Source of the DNA: Nitrosomonadales bacterium | Lineage (GTDB): Bacteria > Pseudomonadota > Gammaproteobacteria > Burkholderiales > Gallionellaceae | Assembly (NCBI GenBank): GCA_023259055.1 | Contig: JAHFQZ010000002.1 | Location: 248,001 to 312,000, forward strand | Reading direction: 5' to 3' | DNA: 64,000 bases | Shown here: positions 55,611-63,318 of the stretch, piece by piece | Numbering within the stretch: position 1 is the stretch's first letter | How the letters are laid out: each line of letters begins with the position of its first letter | Position numbers and translations under genes: made by a program | The notes under the pieces: model-generated | Told to the model about the DNA's origin: nothing | Database searches by the model: none | The model's input: only the letters and a program-made list of their open reading frames with translations

Positions 55611-55727
55611 TTAATACTCCTTCCCGTTTTCGCTCAAGTCTTCTTTAGCGATTGGGCTAGTAGCGGGCGTTCCTTCCTGTATTGTTGTGAAGACCGCCAA
55701 AACTTGCAGTGCTGCGAAATCAATCAC
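55611..55727 (-). CDS. Possible 38-residue ORF overlapping the end of pilY1
   Basis: A GTG at 55727 overlaps the pilY1 stop region by 8 bases and opens a 38-codon frame ending before the shared terminator. The peptide has a hydrophobic first half (FAALQVLAVFTTI) and a polar tail ending SENGKEY. The overlap would allow coupled translation. No ribosome-binding site or known family supports it, so it may be chance or a remnant. Confidence 0.25.
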   Translation of the reverse strand: MIDFAALQVLAVFTTIQEGTPATSPIAKEDLSENGKEY

Positions 55728-58700
55728 TTTCCATATACCAGTAGGATCTGTACCTGCTGCCGGTAGGGTTGATCACAACTTCGGAGCCCTGCAATGCAGA
55801 TGAGTTGGCCGATGTTGTATCGATGCAGCCGATGCAGAACGGATACTTGGTTCCACCCACATCCACGACCCCTGCTACCGGTGACGGCGGCATACCGCCA
55901 CCGACATAGATGGCGGAACGATTGCCGCCGCTCGTACTAGTCGCATTGCCGGTCAGGTATTCCACCGCGTATCCACGTGCAGTTCCCAGATTCGCCACAC
56001 AGGATGTGCCGCCTGGGCTGGGGGTGTTGGTGCCGAAATTGGTTATGCCGCCAATGGTAAGTCCTGTGTTGACCGATTGCTCGCATGTGCCAAAATTGAA
56101 TCGCCAGCCTTGGGTCGATGTCGTTGTCACCCCGCCTGTGACGTTGGTAATCGTGGTTATCCCTGACGCCGTCACAGTAGTGGTCGTGCCTGATGTGACA
56201 TCGACCAGGCTGCTTGTTGTCGGAGTCGGGCTGGGATAGCCGGTCGGCTGATCCATCAACATATAGAATTGATTGGTAACAAAGCTCCCCAGCGGCGAAG
56301 TTGCCATGTAGTTGCAAGCATAACTATTCACCAGCGGATGCTCGCGATCACCTGATCCGATCAGCACTGCGTTGAATCCCGGAGAGGGCACAACGGTCGG
56401 ACCCTCAAGGAACTTCCGTGCATTGTTGGAATCGCTCAGGCTGGCGATAAGGGTATCAGCTGCTGCCGTATTGGCAGTCCAGAAGCCGAACGTGGCTCCA
56501 TCGTAGGAACCGACATTGATGCGATAGACATAGCCGCCGGAGTCAGACGCGTACACCGAGGTCATATAACCATCAACATCCTTCAGTATAGACAAATCAC
56601 CGGGGACGCTGTAATTGGTGGGGTAAGTGCGGATAATAGCGCCGGTATCCGCATCAACAAACCAGATATTGGCACCCTTGCGCGGCGTGGTTGTGCAGCG
56701 TGTCTTGCTGTCGGTGTCCTCACATTGGTCATAGCCGCCACCGAAGACCAGAACCGGCTTCGGAAGCCCGCCACTCATATACCCGCTGATATAGGCAACC
56801 ATGGGATGTGACCATGTTTGGCCGATGCCGGACCAGCCTGCCGAACACATCGTGTCGTTGGTGGTGTCGCTGGTGAAACAGCCTTTGCGCCATTTGAGCA
56901 CCGGGTTGAAAGGGTCAGATACATCAAATGCGTAAACTGCCCGTCCGCCGCGGCGCATGCTCGAATAAATCCAGACCGTCCCCAATCTCTGAAAGACCCC
57001 GATGGATCCATCGAAGAAGTAATCCTTGGGAAGCGGTGCCGGCGAACCCGTGATGCTGGGGAAGGCGATCAGCGCAGAAGTGATGCCATCGCCGTCGCTG
57101 TCGCTGCCGTTGTCGCGCAGGCGATATAACTTGCCAAAGCCCTCGGGTGGGATAAAGCCCCATAGCTCGATGCCCTCGGTGTCGGTTTGCCCGCCATCCA
57201 CCGCATGGAACACGCCATCGTCTGCGCCATAAAATGCGATCGTTCCGGTGGTACCTCCATAATCGATTACCGCAGGTTGCGAATGGACCACACCGCCATG
57301 CACCGAAGGACGCATCTCATTAAGAATGGGCGCCAAGCCGGCATCCAGATTGGCATTCTCGTTATCGACATCCTTTCCCCGTGTCCACCAGATCAGGTTG
57401 GTGCTCAACGCGCCGGTGACGCTGGCGTTGGAAGTATCGAAGTTGGTAAAAGAAGTGCATGAAGTTGCGGAAGAGCCATCGCAAGTCAACAGCTTGCGGC
57501 ACGATGCCGTTGAAGGCGTTGCGGCGCCACAAACATTATAATTAGTGCTGGTGGTTACCGCGCCGCTGACGCCGCGCAAACGCTGCGCTGCGCCGCCCTT
57601 TTCAACCACCTCGCCGTCGGGTGCGTCCGAATAAACAGAAGTTGACCCAGCGACCGGGTAGGCGGACGCCTGCGCCGAGCAATCGCCCAAGGCAAGTGCC
57701 GTGCCGAAATTCCAATATTGGCCGGTATCCGTAGTCCAGAAACTGTCGGAACAAGGCGTAACGAAACCCGTGACGGTGCTGATCGCTGCATCCCCGTACT
57801 TGTCCGCCAGTTGCAACTTGCCATTGAGCACGGCGAACTGGAATTGCTTCAGGTTTCCGGGCCAGCGCGGCGCGGCATTTGCTTCGGGCCGGAACATGCC
57901 CATGAACACCTGATTGAGGTAGGTTCCCTGGGTGTTCACGCTTACCGGCAGGCTGGACGAAGCGAACACGCTGTTGACTGACTGGATTTCCGAAAAAATC
58001 TTGCGCAGCGCGTTGGTGATGGCGGTTTCATCGGAGGCCTTGAAGTACTTGCCCCCCCCGGTAGAAGCTGCGCTGATTAGCAGGGAACTCTCGTTCGTGT
58101 CTTGCTGGTCCTTGAAGACATCTATCGTAAAGGTGGAGATGTTTTGCTGGCCTACGGCGGGGCTGACATCCGTCCGGTGGAGGAATCTCGCCCATTCGTC
58201 GAAATAGTTGATCTTGGCGGCGGCCGGGGCGGAGAATGTCCCGTTGGGTGTCGCGGCAGTCGTGGTGTAGGTGCCGGTGATGTTTTGGCTGTACGATGAG
58301 CCGGTCACCGTCGTTGTGGAGATGCCGTTCATGCTGTAGGTGTTTCCGCTGGTTATCAAAGTCGTGGCGTCGATCCGCCATTGCTTTGAGCCACCCACAT
58401 TCGGGCTACAATTAGAGCCAGTGCAGCTAAATCCGCTGTAGGAAGGATAATGAGCCGCGCCGTAAGCAGTGCAATTCGTTGCATTAGAAAGATTGTCCGT
58501 AATACAACCGGTGCTTGCCGTGAGGGGATTGGTCGGGTTGCTGGAAGTGGAAGTGCAGGCAGTCTGGTTGGTGCAGGTGGTGCTGGTGTAGCCGGGATGA
58601 GCGACCGCGACCGCCGCTTGGCAAGCCGCCGCGCTGGCATAGACACCGCAGGCAGAGGTGCCGATTACCGTGGTCGTGGTGGTCGTCGAACCGGCAGTGC

Positions 58701-59715
58701 AAGTGCTGTTGTAAGTGCATGCATAGCTGCTGTAGCCGGGATACGTTGTACTAAAAGTGGTAACAGCGTTACAGGCGGCAGTAGAAGTCGTTATGTCAGC
58801 ACCCGGGTAGGTGCCGCATGCGGGCGTGGCCAGCAACACGGATTGAGTCGTGGAGGTGGTGGACAGGTTAGCCAGCGGCAATTGCGTGACATCGCCGCCC
58901 ACACCCTGTGCGGGCAACAGGCTGGGGGGGCCGAGCAGCGTCGAGGGAGAATCCTGCGAAGGGAAGCCGTTGCCGATGAAAATAACGTAATTCTTGGCGC
59001 AACTGTTAGTCGAGGATAGCGGCGAATTGTAATTGGTCTTGAGCGCGTCGGTGTAGGCGGCAGCGTCGAACATGCCGATATTGGCGGCACCGAAATCGCC
59101 GGCATAACGCAAGGTGCCGAACTGGCTGGAATTTACATTCGCGCCGGCCACATCGTCCTGCGCGTGCGCGGGATGGGTGTAGCCGCCGAAGTATTTGAAT
59201 ACTTCCAGCATGGAGGCGCTGTAGTCGGTCTTGGCGGAGGCCGTCTTCTCCGACCCGTTGAAGTTCTTTTGTATGCAATTAGGCGTGCCATTGAGGCTAT
59301 TCGGGCCATCGGTACAGCCCGACGGGAACCCGACCAATTCGGAGAACGCTGATTTATTGGTTGGTGTCATTTGACGGACATGGAAGCGAATATAACCGCC
59401 ATTCTTGTTGGTCCCGGTTCCCTCGGTAAACATCATAAGGCCGACATTGGTTCTGTCAGTTAACTCGCCAATGACGGTGCGCAGGGCGTTCAGTTCGGAT
59501 TCGCCCTGCTTGATGCCCCCCGGCCAGTGCTGGGCCGCAGATGCCCAGTTGGCGCTGTTATCGATGACGATCAGAACATTCGGGTTCAGGGCGGCGTTGG
59601 GAGACGTATCGGGCGGCCTGGCATAAATATCGATGTCTTCGGCAAACCCTTGTGGAGCCGACAAAACAAGGCCGATGCACAAGAAAATCTGTGAAATATT
59701 TTTGATAATGCTCAT
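55720..59715 (-). CDS. pilY1: Type IV pilus tip adhesin PilY1
   Basis: PilY1 caps the minor-pilin complex, promotes pilus extension and binds surfaces. At 1331 residues it has a signal peptide (LCIGLVLSAPQGFA) and an N-terminal von Willebrand factor A domain starting NPNVLIVIDNSANWAS (about 45-60). The C-terminal beta-propeller runs from about residue 800 with HSQPAVIDYGG, GADDGVFHAVDGG and DSDGDG, a likely calcium-binding loop (about 871-876). Within the VWA region, residues 300-436 hold three Cys-rich tandem repeats. The MIDAS motif reads DNSAN where DxSxS is standard. It ends in the normal SYWYMESD. It is the last full-size gene of the minor-pilin operon. Confidence 0.94.
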   Translation of the reverse strand: MSIIKNISQIFLCIGLVLSAPQGFAEDIDIYARPPDTSPNAALNPNVLIVIDNSANWASAAQHWPGGIKQGESELNALRTVIGELTDRTNVGLMMFTEGTGTNKNGGYIRFHVRQMTPTNKSAFSELVGFPSGCTDGPNSLNGTPNCIQKNFNGSEKTASAKTDYSASMLEVFKYFGGYTHPAHAQDDVAGANVNSSQFGTLRYAGDFGAANIGMFDAAAYTDALKTNYNSPLSSTNSCAKNYVIFIGNGFPSQDSPSTLLGPPSLLPAQGVGGDVTQLPLANLSTTSTTQSVLLATPACGTYPGADITTSTAACNAVTTFSTTYPGYSSYACTYNSTCTAGSTTTTTTVIGTSACGVYASAAACQAAVAVAHPGYTSTTCTNQTACTSTSSNPTNPLTASTGCITDNLSNATNCTAYGAAHYPSYSGFSCTGSNCSPNVGGSKQWRIDATTLITSGNTYSMNGISTTTVTGSSYSQNITGTYTTTAATPNGTFSAPAAAKINYFDEWARFLHRTDVSPAVGQQNISTFTIDVFKDQQDTNESSLLISAASTGGGKYFKASDETAITNALRKIFSEIQSVNSVFASSSLPVSVNTQGTYLNQVFMGMFRPEANAAPRWPGNLKQFQFAVLNGKLQLADKYGDAAISTVTGFVTPCSDSFWTTDTGQYWNFGTALALGDCSAQASAYPVAGSTSVYSDAPDGEVVEKGGAAQRLRGVSGAVTTSTNYNVCGAATPSTASCRKLLTCDGSSATSCTSFTNFDTSNASVTGALSTNLIWWTRGKDVDNENANLDAGLAPILNEMRPSVHGGVVHSQPAVIDYGGTTGTIAFYGADDGVFHAVDGGQTDTEGIELWGFIPPEGFGKLYRLRDNGSDSDGDGITSALIAFPSITGSPAPLPKDYFFDGSIGVFQRLGTVWIYSSMRRGGRAVYAFDVSDPFNPVLKWRKGCFTSDTTNDTMCSAGWSGIGQTWSHPMVAYISGYMSGGLPKPVLVFGGGYDQCEDTDSKTRCTTTPRKGANIWFVDADTGAIIRTYPTNYSVPGDLSILKDVDGYMTSVYASDSGGYVYRINVGSYDGATFGFWTANTAAADTLIASLSDSNNARKFLEGPTVVPSPGFNAVLIGSGDREHPLVNSYACNYMATSPLGSFVTNQFYMLMDQPTGYPSPTPTTSSLVDVTSGTTTTVTASGITTITNVTGGVTTTSTQGWRFNFGTCEQSVNTGLTIGGITNFGTNTPSPGGTSCVANLGTARGYAVEYLTGNATSTSGGNRSAIYVGGGMPPSPVAGVVDVGGTKYPFCIGCIDTTSANSSALQGSEVVINPTGSRYRSYWYMESD

Positions 59716-59734: not shown

Positions 59735-60274
59735 TCAAATGCCACAAGATGTGACGCCTGCATTTAATCCCGCTATCGTTCTTATTCCCTGGTGAATCAC
59801 GACGCCGGCGCCGGTAACCGGATCAGCGACCCTCGCAGTGATGTCCCACACGGTCCAGAAGCAGACTGCACCGATGGAGCTGGCGCATTCAGACGGAGTC
59901 GTTGGATCTGTTGGATCAACCGGTTTAAATGAAACACAGGCTGGCGCAGGCGAGAAGGTCACGGTGTAATTTGCAACCCCATTGACATTGACCGTTTGCG
60001 GCAAGGGCGCGACCGTTCGGAAAGTGCCGGTACTGATCACGTTTTCAATCGCTTTTTGAGCGGCTGCGGTGGCTTCCTCGCGGAATTGCGCATTACCCAC
60101 CATCTGGACGCTGGTTGTGGTGCTGTTGATGGCCGATACCGCAACCAAGGTCAGCAGCACCAGCATGATGAGTCCTACCAGCAAAGTGCTGCCGCGCTGC
60201 TGTTTGATTCCTGCCCTGATTCCTTCGGCAGGCGCTGGGTAAACACCGGGATGCGGTTTGGGAGAGAATGTCAT
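59735..60274 (-). CDS. pilX: Minor pilin PilX
   Basis: PilX is one of the minor pilins that prime pilus assembly with PilV, PilW and PilY1. The 179-residue protein has a polar leader, then QRGSTLLVGLIMLVLLTLVAVSA (about residues 26-48), the typical PilX membrane helix, whose processing site lacks the classical G-F-T but keeps Gly-Ser-Thr. Two cysteine pairs lie in the C-terminal half. Its start overlaps the pilW stop by four bases (ATGA). Confidence 0.9.
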   Translation of the reverse strand: MTFSPKPHPGVYPAPAEGIRAGIKQQRGSTLLVGLIMLVLLTLVAVSAINSTTTSVQMVGNAQFREEATAAAQKAIENVISTGTFRTVAPLPQTVNVNGVANYTVTFSPAPACVSFKPVDPTDPTTPSECASSIGAVCFWTVWDITARVADPVTGAGVVIHQGIRTIAGLNAGVTSCGI

Positions 60275-61821
60275 GGTACTTCCCTCCGGCCGGCCGTATT
60301 AACCAAACGGATAAACTGAGTAAAGACATGGCGCTTGTAGTTATCATTGCGCGGTCCTACCGTCTGGGCATTCCCGGCGGAATCCTTCCCGAGCGTATAG
60401 ATTTTCGTATCCGTATAACCCTTGGACTGTTCGGTGTTTCTCGCCAGGATGGTTATCTTTACCGAGACAACGTTTGACCAATCTGCGGGCGATGGCGCAG
60501 CAGTGAATACGTCCGCAACGCCATCGCCCGCTATGGCTTTTGGGCTGATCACTATTGCGGGAATATTCAACGGCACTAATGGACAGGGTGACAATGGGTT
60601 AGTAGAGTCACATTGAGTGGCATTTTTGGTGAGAGTGATGGTTGTAGTGGTTAAACCCGCAATGGTAGTGCCGGCAGGTATTCCGGCAGCACATATTTCA
60701 TTCCCTTCCCTTACCAGCGCCAGTTTGGGGTCGGCAGACAAGCCGGTCAGAACGGAGCTGTTTGGAGTAACGGTCGCAGTCAAATAGGGTATTGTCAAAG
60801 GCACCAGTTCCATCGGTACCAATGTGCTAGTCACAATAGGACCAGAGCCTGCTGCTTTCAGGGTGGTTATTGTTCCGGGAGCGGCTGGGCTGAGAGTTGG
60901 TGAGGTCATGGTATTAACGGTATATCCTGCCGGAATTCTTTGGTTTGAGGTTGTGTCATGATAAACGCCCATGCCTGGCTTTATTCTTGCCAAAACGGGG
61001 TCGACTGATAAATTATTCAGCACGAGGCTGCCTGCAGTCGTCGTCGCAGTAATCTTAAAGCTGGAATTGTTATCGACTCCATATTCAATCTGCATGTATT
61101 CGATCCCTTCTACCAGTGGCGTGATCACGGGAAGTCCGGACATCTGATCGGTTTCCAGCACCTTTAGTGTGGGAATGCCATCTCCAGCCGTGTTTTCGGG
61201 TGATATGAAATATACGTGCTCCAGCATGCGGCGCAAATCGGCATAGGGAGTGCTGCTGGTTGGCGAGCAGTTTTTCTTCCGCAGCGTAAAGTCTGCAGGG
61301 GTTGTGCTGATGACATAACTCCGCGCGTCATATTGGCAAAGTGAAACCTGCATGTACTTCACTCCGGCAACCGCAGCCGATTGTGCGGTGGGTGTTCCAG
61401 TGCTGACTCGGCGTATCACTAATATGTCGCTGCCTGTCCTGAGCTGGCTTGAGGTAATACCCGCAGGAGGAGTTGGTATGCTATTTATCCCGGCATCGTA
61501 GCCCCAGATACCGACGGGAACGTATGAGCAGGTGCTAGCCGCAGGGACATATTCTCCAAAATACCCTGCCAGTTTCACGTCGCTAACGAGTATATCCATC
61601 GCATAGCGTCCGTTATCGATCATACGATTGGATTTGTCCAGCTCTACCCTCGTTTTGGTCTGGTTAACGAACAGCGTGGATAAGGAGGCCAGGATAATTA
61701 ATCCCAAGGTAATGGAAATCATCAGCTCGACCAGCGACAGACCGCGCTGGAATGGCACATTCCCTCCGGCTACCGTGCTCAGGACAGGGATGTTTACATT
61801 TTGGCTTATTGAGGATTTCAT
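60271..61821 (-). CDS. pilW: Minor pilin PilW with a large internal insertion
   Basis: PilW is a minor pilin of the tip complex. The prepilin site is QRGLSLVELMISITLGLIIL (about residues 25-44), with the conserved Glu at +5. Family segments include NGRYAMDILVSDVKLAGYFG (70-89), LVEGIEYMQIEYGVDNN (236-252) and GDGVADVFTAAPSPADWSNVV (432-452). In ordinary PilW proteins the last two are contiguous. Here about 180 residues with two related repeats (each with an LSxDPxLA and an IPAG motif) separate them. The total of 516 residues is well above the usual 330-370. Confidence 0.93.
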   Translation of the reverse strand: MKSSISQNVNIPVLSTVAGGNVPFQRGLSLVELMISITLGLIILASLSTLFVNQTKTRVELDKSNRMIDNGRYAMDILVSDVKLAGYFGEYVPAASTCSYVPVGIWGYDAGINSIPTPPAGITSSQLRTGSDILVIRRVSTGTPTAQSAAVAGVKYMQVSLCQYDARSYVISTTPADFTLRKKNCSPTSSTPYADLRRMLEHVYFISPENTAGDGIPTLKVLETDQMSGLPVITPLVEGIEYMQIEYGVDNNSSFKITATTTAGSLVLNNLSVDPVLARIKPGMGVYHDTTSNQRIPAGYTVNTMTSPTLSPAAPGTITTLKAAGSGPIVTSTLVPMELVPLTIPYLTATVTPNSSVLTGLSADPKLALVREGNEICAAGIPAGTTIAGLTTTTITLTKNATQCDSTNPLSPCPLVPLNIPAIVISPKAIAGDGVADVFTAAPSPADWSNVVSVKITILARNTEQSKGYTDTKIYTLGKDSAGNAQTVGPRNDNYKRHVFTQFIRLVNTAGRREVP

Positions 61822-61822
61822 G

Positions 61823-62419
61823 TCAGTTCAGTAGATTCGCCATGTTGATGGGTAATGAGACCACGCGGTGCAAGGCTTCGTTGACGTTACCGTCTTTATC
61901 CAAGTATGTACCTGCTCCGCACTTTCCTGGGGAAGTGGCAGTGAGGTTTTCAGGTGCGGAGGTGATGTTAATTCCCTGCCATGCCACTACGACCACATAC
62001 TGCCCAGCCACGCCGGTGGCCGGTGCCGAAATTTGATATATGCAGCCGCGCGCGCCTATCATCGCGCCGGCATTATTGGCGCCTTGTTTTTCGGCGGTGC
62101 CTTTGAGCGCATTGCTCCATTCGCAAAAGTCCAATAGCTGCTGATTAGTCAGCGCCGCGCAACTTGCGGGTTGCGTGTCACCCGTTCCAAGGTAGGCAGG
62201 AGGAGGAGTCAGATAGAAAGCGATATTTTTGCGATTGGCATTGATCCGGGCTGCCATGTCTTTCAGCAGGATCAGAGCCTGTGCGCGCTGATAGGATTCC
62301 ATCTGCGATGTGAGCGCACGCGCTTGCAATCCGGCCAAACCTAATAAGCCGATCATCAGGATCACGATGGTCACCAGCACTTCGATCATGCTGAAGCCAT
62401 TGATGTTTTGCTTGGTCAT
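61823..62419 (-). CDS. pilV: Minor pilin PilV
   Basis: PilV is a minor pilin with the prepilin cleavage/transmembrane motif GFSMIEVLVTIVILMIGLLG (about residues 8-27) followed by LAGLQARALTSQMESYQRAQA, the PilV/GspI-like signature. It has about 198 residues and several C-terminal cysteines. The ATG at 62419 overlaps the fimT stop (ATGA), which favours it over an ATG six bases upstream. pilW starts directly after its stop. Confidence 0.92.
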   Translation of the reverse strand: MTKQNINGFSMIEVLVTIVILMIGLLGLAGLQARALTSQMESYQRAQALILLKDMAARINANRKNIAFYLTPPPAYLGTGDTQPASCAALTNQQLLDFCEWSNALKGTAEKQGANNAGAMIGARGCIYQISAPATGVAGQYVVVVAWQGINITSAPENLTATSPGKCGAGTYLDKDGNVNEALHRVVSLPINMANLLN

Positions 62420-62916
62420 GGACATACCCCATTGCGCGTGCGAGGCATTCCGCTTAATTCGATCGTGATGCAGAGAACCTTCGCGGTTGGCGTTGTTGCG
62501 CCTGCCACGTCAATCTGAAAGGTAATTGGGGCGGCTGTTACCGTTGTTCTGCCGTTGCGCGTGTAGGAAATTCCTGCGGTAGCAGAAACTGAAGGCGTAA
62601 TAGTCACGCCCTTCGGCGCCGGCCTGGAGTCGATTATTACACCGCTGGCTGCAACATCCATGCTGGTAAGCACGCCTCCGGAAAGCGTGGGCGTAACCGT
62701 GACAGGATTCAAGGCACCACTGTTGCGCTTGATCGCTTCACTCCTTGCCAAACTCAGGATGGAAAACAATTCAAAGCTCGCGTTATTCACCCGCTGGCTT
62801 TCCATCAGCGATTTGAAGCTGGGCATAGCGATGGACGCCAAAATACCCGCAATGGCGATAACGATCATCAGCTCGATCAGCGTAAATCCGGAATCAGGGG
62901 GTCGGGAGGTTTTCAT
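62416..62916 (-). CDS. fimT: FimT/GspH-family pseudopilin
   Basis: This 166-residue protein has the prepilin motif GFTLIELMIVIAIAGILASI (about residues 10-29) and the FimT/GspH continuation FELFSILSLARSEAIKRN (about 50-67). In transforming bacteria FimT binds DNA during uptake; dprA elsewhere in the window fits that idea, but a basic C-terminal DNA-binding tail is not obvious here. pilV overlaps its stop by four bases. Confidence 0.9.
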   Translation of the reverse strand: MKTSRPPDSGFTLIELMIVIAIAGILASIAMPSFKSLMESQRVNNASFELFSILSLARSEAIKRNSGALNPVTVTPTLSGGVLTSMDVAASGVIIDSRPAPKGVTITPSVSATAGISYTRNGRTTVTAAPITFQIDVAGATTPTAKVLCITIELSGMPRTRNGVCP

Positions 62917-62925
62917 TTTGAGTGG

Positions 62926-63318
62926 CTACCACTTGCCAGCCGGTCCTTTAACGCCAGTATCAGTCAGAGTCAAATTGCCGTCATTTGCATTTGCCTGCTG
63001 GCTGTTCGGAACAGGGGTCGCAGTGATAGTGAAAGTAGGAGGGATCGCTGCCGGTACGTTAATCGTAAAGGTATAGTTCCTCGAAACATCTGTCGGGGGG
63101 GTTATCGCTAAGGTGGTCAAGTCTGGTGCATAAGAGCGCGCATCCAGCAAATACTGTTTTTCACGATTTGCCACATCCATCATGAATGCTTCTGCTGCAG
63201 TCCGGTTGCCTCTGACTACATACTGCGAATATTGCGGGATGGCGACCGCAGCAAGAATCCCAACTATGGCTACAACAAGCATTAGCTCGATTAGGTTAAA
63301 CCCCTTTTCGTATTTCAT
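62926..63318 (-). CDS. pilE: Minor pilin PilE (type IV pilin-like protein)
   Basis: This 130-residue pilin-like protein has a short leader (MKYEKG) cut before FNLIELMLVVAIVGILAAVA, then IPQYSQYVVRGNRTAAEAFMM with the typical PilE minor-pilin pattern, and a C-terminal beta domain. It lacks the paired C-terminal cysteines of major pilins. A strong AAAGGAG site precedes the ATG. It is the first gene of the pilE-fimT-pilV-pilW-pilX-pilY1 run; in many relatives pilE is last. Confidence 0.85.
   Translation of the reverse strand: MKYEKGFNLIELMLVVAIVGILAAVAIPQYSQYVVRGNRTAAEAFMMDVANREKQYLLDARSYAPDLTTLAITPPTDVSRNYTFTINVPAAIPPTFTITATPVPNSQQANANDGNLTLTDTGVKGPAGKW

Follow-up and report, generated by a model that had tools for sequence, protein, structure and literature searches.

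A PilY1-type protein at the end of a minor-pilin cluster

The 64,000-nucleotide stretch of DNA analyzed here (the window) encodes a PilY1-type type IVa pilus tip protein, which is the last gene of a same-strand minor-pilin cluster (Table 1). Two features expected of a PilY1/PilC tip protein are present: minor pilins (FimU/PilV/PilW/PilX) are encoded directly upstream on the same strand, and its N-terminal region is predicted by AlphaFold to adopt a VWA fold, which Foldseek matches to VWA domains with an E value of about 0.007. In addition, a profile built from four orthologs of the protein finds the PilY1 structure 3HX6, which covers the C-terminal domain, with E 2e-5. The Pfam model PF05567 (T4P_PilY1), which describes the C-terminal beta-propeller, matches the protein with E 3e-6 and 26.4 bits, just below the model cut-off of 28.1, and plain hmmscan of the protein lists no family; automatic annotation may therefore miss this PilY1 and its relatives. 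The nearest named relatives of the window PilY1 are from Gallionella metagenome-assembled genomes (MAGs) and Candidatus Ferrigenium straubiae, and its host is an iron-oxidizer-like, Gallionella-type bacterium.

Two further features of the locus can be recorded. The match of the minor pilin at 62926-63318 (-) to ComP_DUS, a DNA-uptake-sequence receptor, scores 55 bits, and this gene, beside the PilY1 cluster, may encode a DNA-uptake pilin in a Gallionella-type host. The C-terminal region of PilY1 contains an acidic loop, DSDGDG, around residues 872-877 (window 57085-57102 (-)). This loop is without counterpart in two close relatives (L003 and L004). It may be a calcium site, one that differs between close relatives.

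Table 1. Features of the PilY1 locus in window coordinates
Feature	Position	Strand	Details and basis
PilY1-type type IVa pilus tip protein, 1331 aa	55720..59715	(-)	ORF; signal peptide, VWA with insert, beta-propeller region
VWA N-terminal part, residues 25-256	58948..59643	(-)	D52 and D255 invariant; AlphaFold, Foldseek, alignment
Cys unit 1: C300, C315, C333, C339 and flanks	58681..58836	(-)	predicted helix 308-316, strand 330-339
Cys unit 2: C356, C365, C381, C387 and flanks	58537..58668	(-)	predicted helix 362-372, strand 378-392
Cys unit 3: C404, C415, C431, C436 and flanks	58390..58524	(-)	predicted helix 412-422, strands around
Cys-free insert part, residues 446-500	58216..58380	(-)	predicted long beta strands, kept in unit-bearing relatives; AlphaFold, alignment
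VWA C-terminal part, residues 501-580	57976..58215	(-)	FDEWARF...; AlphaFold
Minor-pilin genes upstream of PilY1	59735..63318	(-)	Pfam
PilX-N	59735-60274	(-)	Pfam PilX_N
PilW	60271-61821	(-)	Pfam PilW
PilV-like	61823-62425	(-)	Pfam Tt1218-like (PilV)
GspH/FimU-like pilin	62416-62916	(-)	Pfam GspH
Pilin with ComP_DUS match	62926-63318	(-)	Pfam

The VWA insert contains three tandem four-cysteine units

A first-pass annotation of the window had described twelve cysteines within residues 300-436 of PilY1, arranged in three units with gaps of 14-17-5, 8-15-5 and 10-15-4 residues and with a YPGY, HPGY or YPSY motif ahead of the third cysteine. The translation of 55720-59715(-) agrees in every detail: the span given, 58408-58818, encodes residues 300-436, the cysteines and gaps are exactly as described, and the motifs lie at residues 325-328, 373-376 and 423-426, respectively. 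A unit HMM trained on 27 units from other proteins only, with no window sequence, identifies exactly three domains in the window PilY1, with scores of 30.6, 38.7 and 37.2 bits, whereas no score among 2000 shuffled versions of the window insert exceeds 9.1 bits. The bounds of these domains, 299-349, 355-396 and 403-445, are in the numbering of the open frame, which begins four residues before the start codon. When the HMM was trained only on arrays outside the three-unit group, the window units scored 13.9, 33.5 and 12.4 bits and the best shuffle 13.0 bits; with this narrower model unit 2 still stands out clearly, units 1 and 3 being borderline.

The unit consensus is xxxxxxCGxYxSxAACxAxxxxxYPGYxSYSCTxxxxC. 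In an alignment of the window protein with four relatives, 11 of the 12 cysteines occupy invariant columns (hypergeometric P about 6e-7); the remaining one is also there, at a shifted position. All twelve are retained in five close relatives. Collectively, these sequence comparisons establish the units as a real repeat with conserved cysteines. Scans of Pfam, NCBIfam and PHROGs revealed no family for the repeat unit above cut-off, the best subthreshold match being DUF3512 (E 0.17), and the unit profile had no match among PDB sequences. Our literature searches, on PilY1 with Gallionella and on PilY1 with tandem repeats and VWA, found no description of the repeat. The Cys unit is an apparently undescribed small module of disulfide type.

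Cysteine loss in relatives points to nested disulfides

Relatives with longer or truncated arrays give an indication of how the cysteines pair. In the first unit of three of them (L048, L049 and L063), C1 and C4 are jointly missing with C2 and C3 kept, which suggests C1-C4 and C2-C3 pairing. Each unit thus probably contains two nested disulfides, as far as the pattern of residues can tell, and the joint loss may represent one evolutionary event in related sequences. In the last unit of L049, C3 is lost according to the alignment and another cysteine is gained downstream. The machinery for disulfide formation is also encoded: DsbD is present in the window, as had been noted previously, and DsbA and DsbB are encoded elsewhere in the genome.

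Alternatively, the cysteines might bind a metal such as iron, or they might work as a redox or thiol switch in force or redox sensing. In favor of this reading, the closest relatives with names carry the labels Gallionella and Ferrigenium, and single Cys residues in the VWA domain of Pseudomonas aeruginosa PilY1 affect surface sensing, with a Cys152 switch and a role in force sensing proposed for that protein (PMC8806160). However, PilY1 is exported and the genome has the DsbA, DsbB and DsbD proteins, the cysteine spacings are unlike CxxC metal sites or CxxCH haem motifs, and the insert has almost no histidine or acidic ligands, with only 3 charged residues among the 166 of residues 280-445 (1.8%). 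We consider a metal site or switch unlikely and structural disulfides the better account of the conserved cysteines.

The insert is predicted to be folded

Residues 22-640 of the window PilY1 were modelled by AlphaFold with 21 sequences (model residue + 21 = protein residue). The mean pLDDT is 73.6, and the insert blocks are mostly at 72-91. In this model the insert is predicted to be folded, not disordered, with one strand-helix-strand per unit. Each of the three predicted helices follows C1 of its unit and holds C2, and the predicted strands carry C3 and mostly C4. The Thr/Ser-rich linkers of the first-pass annotation are found as Thr-rich stretches; these are predicted as strands, not as plain linkers. 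C terminal to the units, long Cys-free strands are predicted at 443-450, 452-469 and 474-495. The model of the six-unit protein L048, with a mean pLDDT of 57, again places a helix in every unit and is reliable only in the first two.

Serine and threonine make up 36% of residues 280-445, and identity between relatives is 49-56% in the insert, compared with 64-79% in the flanking VWA parts. A composition so rich in Ser and Thr and poor in charge, combined with this faster divergence, would fit a flexible low-complexity Thr/Ser/Ala-rich spacer, possibly glycosylated, in which the cysteines lock the chain only locally. Such a spacer is nevertheless hard to reconcile with the confidently predicted secondary structure, including strands in the Thr-rich stretches themselves, or with the strictly kept cysteines and the clear homology across proteins, and we regard it as quite improbable compared with an array of folded modules.

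The units are restricted to one PilY1 clade and vary in number

Counted by HMM, three units are present in the window PilY1 and in L043-L047 (four of which are L002-L005 under another name), five in L049, six in L048 and one each in L050 and L052. L051 has one atypical unit, recognized by eye only, and L063, in which the contig ends inside the array, has at least two units by HMM. The insert is absent from two PilY1 proteins of the same genus (L006 and L007) and from the PilY1 proteins read among L053-L058 and L060-L062. The copy-number variation that had been predicted among strains is observed at the level of species (0, 1, 3, 5 and 6 units). The contig of L050 is labelled Mycobacterium sp. 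nzgw94. Its PilY1 is nearest to that of a betaproteobacterial MAG, and it is likely a mis-binned or mislabelled record.

Arrays occur in 8 of the 158 Gallionellaceae genomes, in every case in large PilY1-type frames or in the contig-truncated one. Weak matches in two further genomes of the family (G006 and G499) were short or broken and were not counted. Profile searches of order-wide and phylum-wide samples, of about 400 genomes each, returned only the source genome itself and one marginal match with an internal stop, and tblastn of the six-unit array against plasmids gave no match. In a tree built on the VWA domain with the insert removed, all unit-bearing PilY1 proteins form one clade (support 100/98), within which the three-unit proteins form one subclade (support 90/92). 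The distribution of the unit is therefore clade-limited, and its copy number is variable.

Units at the same position in different species share a mean identity of 51%, compared with 29% for units within one protein, indicating that the three-unit state is old. Consistent with this, no DNA-level repeats of 12 nt or longer were found across the three units of the window, which likewise dates the duplications as old. In L048, DNA-level copies are found at 69-74%, and the inner units of this protein group with units of L049 and L063. The pilus tip appears to have been remodelled by gain or loss of units. Alternatively, an exposed loop with variable copy number and faster divergence than the rest of PilY1 might diversify the cell surface chiefly to evade pilus-binding phages or predators and not for adhesion, but same-position units remain recognizable between species, at the identity given above, and we give this little credence.

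The insert is predicted to follow VWA strand 4 beside a putative metal site

The insert had been placed inside the VWA domain, and the model both supports that placement and narrows it to the loop after strand 4, directly after an invariant Asp. Indeed, the insert lies between strand 242-248 with D255 and helix 505-514, that is, after VWA strand 4 and before the next helix, as assigned by predicted topology, not by superposition. The best Foldseek matches are VWA domains, with probabilities of 0.95-0.99 and none reaching E 0.001; among PDB entries, the best are the VWA domains of LapA-type adhesins, TFIIH and Ku, with E values of 0.007 and above. Both D52 and D255 are identical in 21 of 21 PilY1 sequences, and, judged from VWA topology, D255 is likely the distal MIDAS aspartate. 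The canonical DxSxS motif of the MIDAS is altered to D52-N-S-A-N56, in which the last Ser is replaced by Asn. This non-canonical motif makes metal binding uncertain, and we therefore assign the arm to a MIDAS-adjacent place and do not class the protein as a functional-MIDAS adhesin.

In the VWA pilus-tip adhesins Mfa5, RrgA and GBS104, a subdomain termed ARM2 is inserted after the fourth strand, ahead of the next helix, and covers the MIDAS cleft as a lid (PMC7835359), and Streptococcus sanguinis PilB has comparable arms (PMC8179133). As in RrgA, GBS104 and Mfa5, the predicted folded insertion of the window PilY1 is at a pilus tip, beside the MIDAS position, and, by predicted topology, separates strand 4 from the helix after it. 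However, there are differences. The arms of RrgA, GBS104 and Mfa5 are single subdomains of about 98-123 aa, for which tandem disulfide repeats are unmentioned (PMC7835359, PMC8179133), whereas in the lineage of the window PilY1, a type IVa tip protein, the arm comprises 1-6 tandem four-Cys units and has no sequence match. The PilY1 of P. aeruginosa PA14 likewise has a Cys-rich VWA domain in a type IVa tip protein, with 7 cysteines including Cys152, but these are scattered, and tandem units are unreported in the sections consulted (PMC8806160). Myxobacterial PilY1 proteins of clades 1.3 and 1.5-1.7, which were compared by description only, are Cys-rich (medians 30-41) with long N-terminal regions, and the excerpts used here do not describe a repeat unit (PMC13190605). 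What is known is thus the VWA pilus adhesin with an arm; what is new is the tandem, copy-variable module.

A probable disulfide-braced arm at the pilus tip

PilY1 makes the first surface contact and is a proposed mechanosensor. We favor as probable the interpretation that the insert is an arm on the VWA domain of PilY1 at the pilus tip, specific to this lineage, variable in copy number and braced by disulfides. The three units would be tandem copies of a small strand-helix-strand module, with fold and position as predicted by AlphaFold, and each module would probably be braced by the nested C1-C4 and C2-C3 disulfides. The modules would form an arm in the loop after VWA strand 4, immediately C terminal to the invariant Asp that likely occupies the MIDAS position. 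By analogy to ARM2 in RrgA, GBS104 and Mfa5, the arm may stand above the ligand face of the pilus tip or next to it. There it could determine the adhesion target of the tip and the distance to which the site protrudes, with the disulfides keeping the arm folded under pulling force. For an exposed, nearly uncharged, Ser/Thr-rich and faster-evolving arm beside the ligand face, shaping of adhesion would be the simplest function, and we infer an adhesive role for the PilY1 arm. A bolder version, to which we assign only a small chance, is that the disulfides form a countable "ladder" in which the number of like-folded units beside the VWA ligand site sets reach, stiffness or a force threshold of the tip adhesin, such that lineages adjust attachment by gain or loss of units.

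With 0 to 6 copies beside the metal-site position, these PilY1 proteins provide a natural variant series in which to examine whether adhesion and force response depend on arm length or on disulfides. In addition, an arm beside the MIDAS may be a solution at which type IVa pilus tips arrived just as the unrelated pili of Gram-positive bacteria and Bacteroidota did. One other PilY1, from genome G019 (L031 1932-3233 (+)), has a different Cys-rich tandem insert at the same VWA site, made up of three units of the form TTSCY...LTCPxGxxCTY...C. The unit HMM has no match in this insert, which was therefore rejected as a relative of the window repeat; the VWA strand-4 loop may be a hot spot for unrelated Cys-rich repeats.
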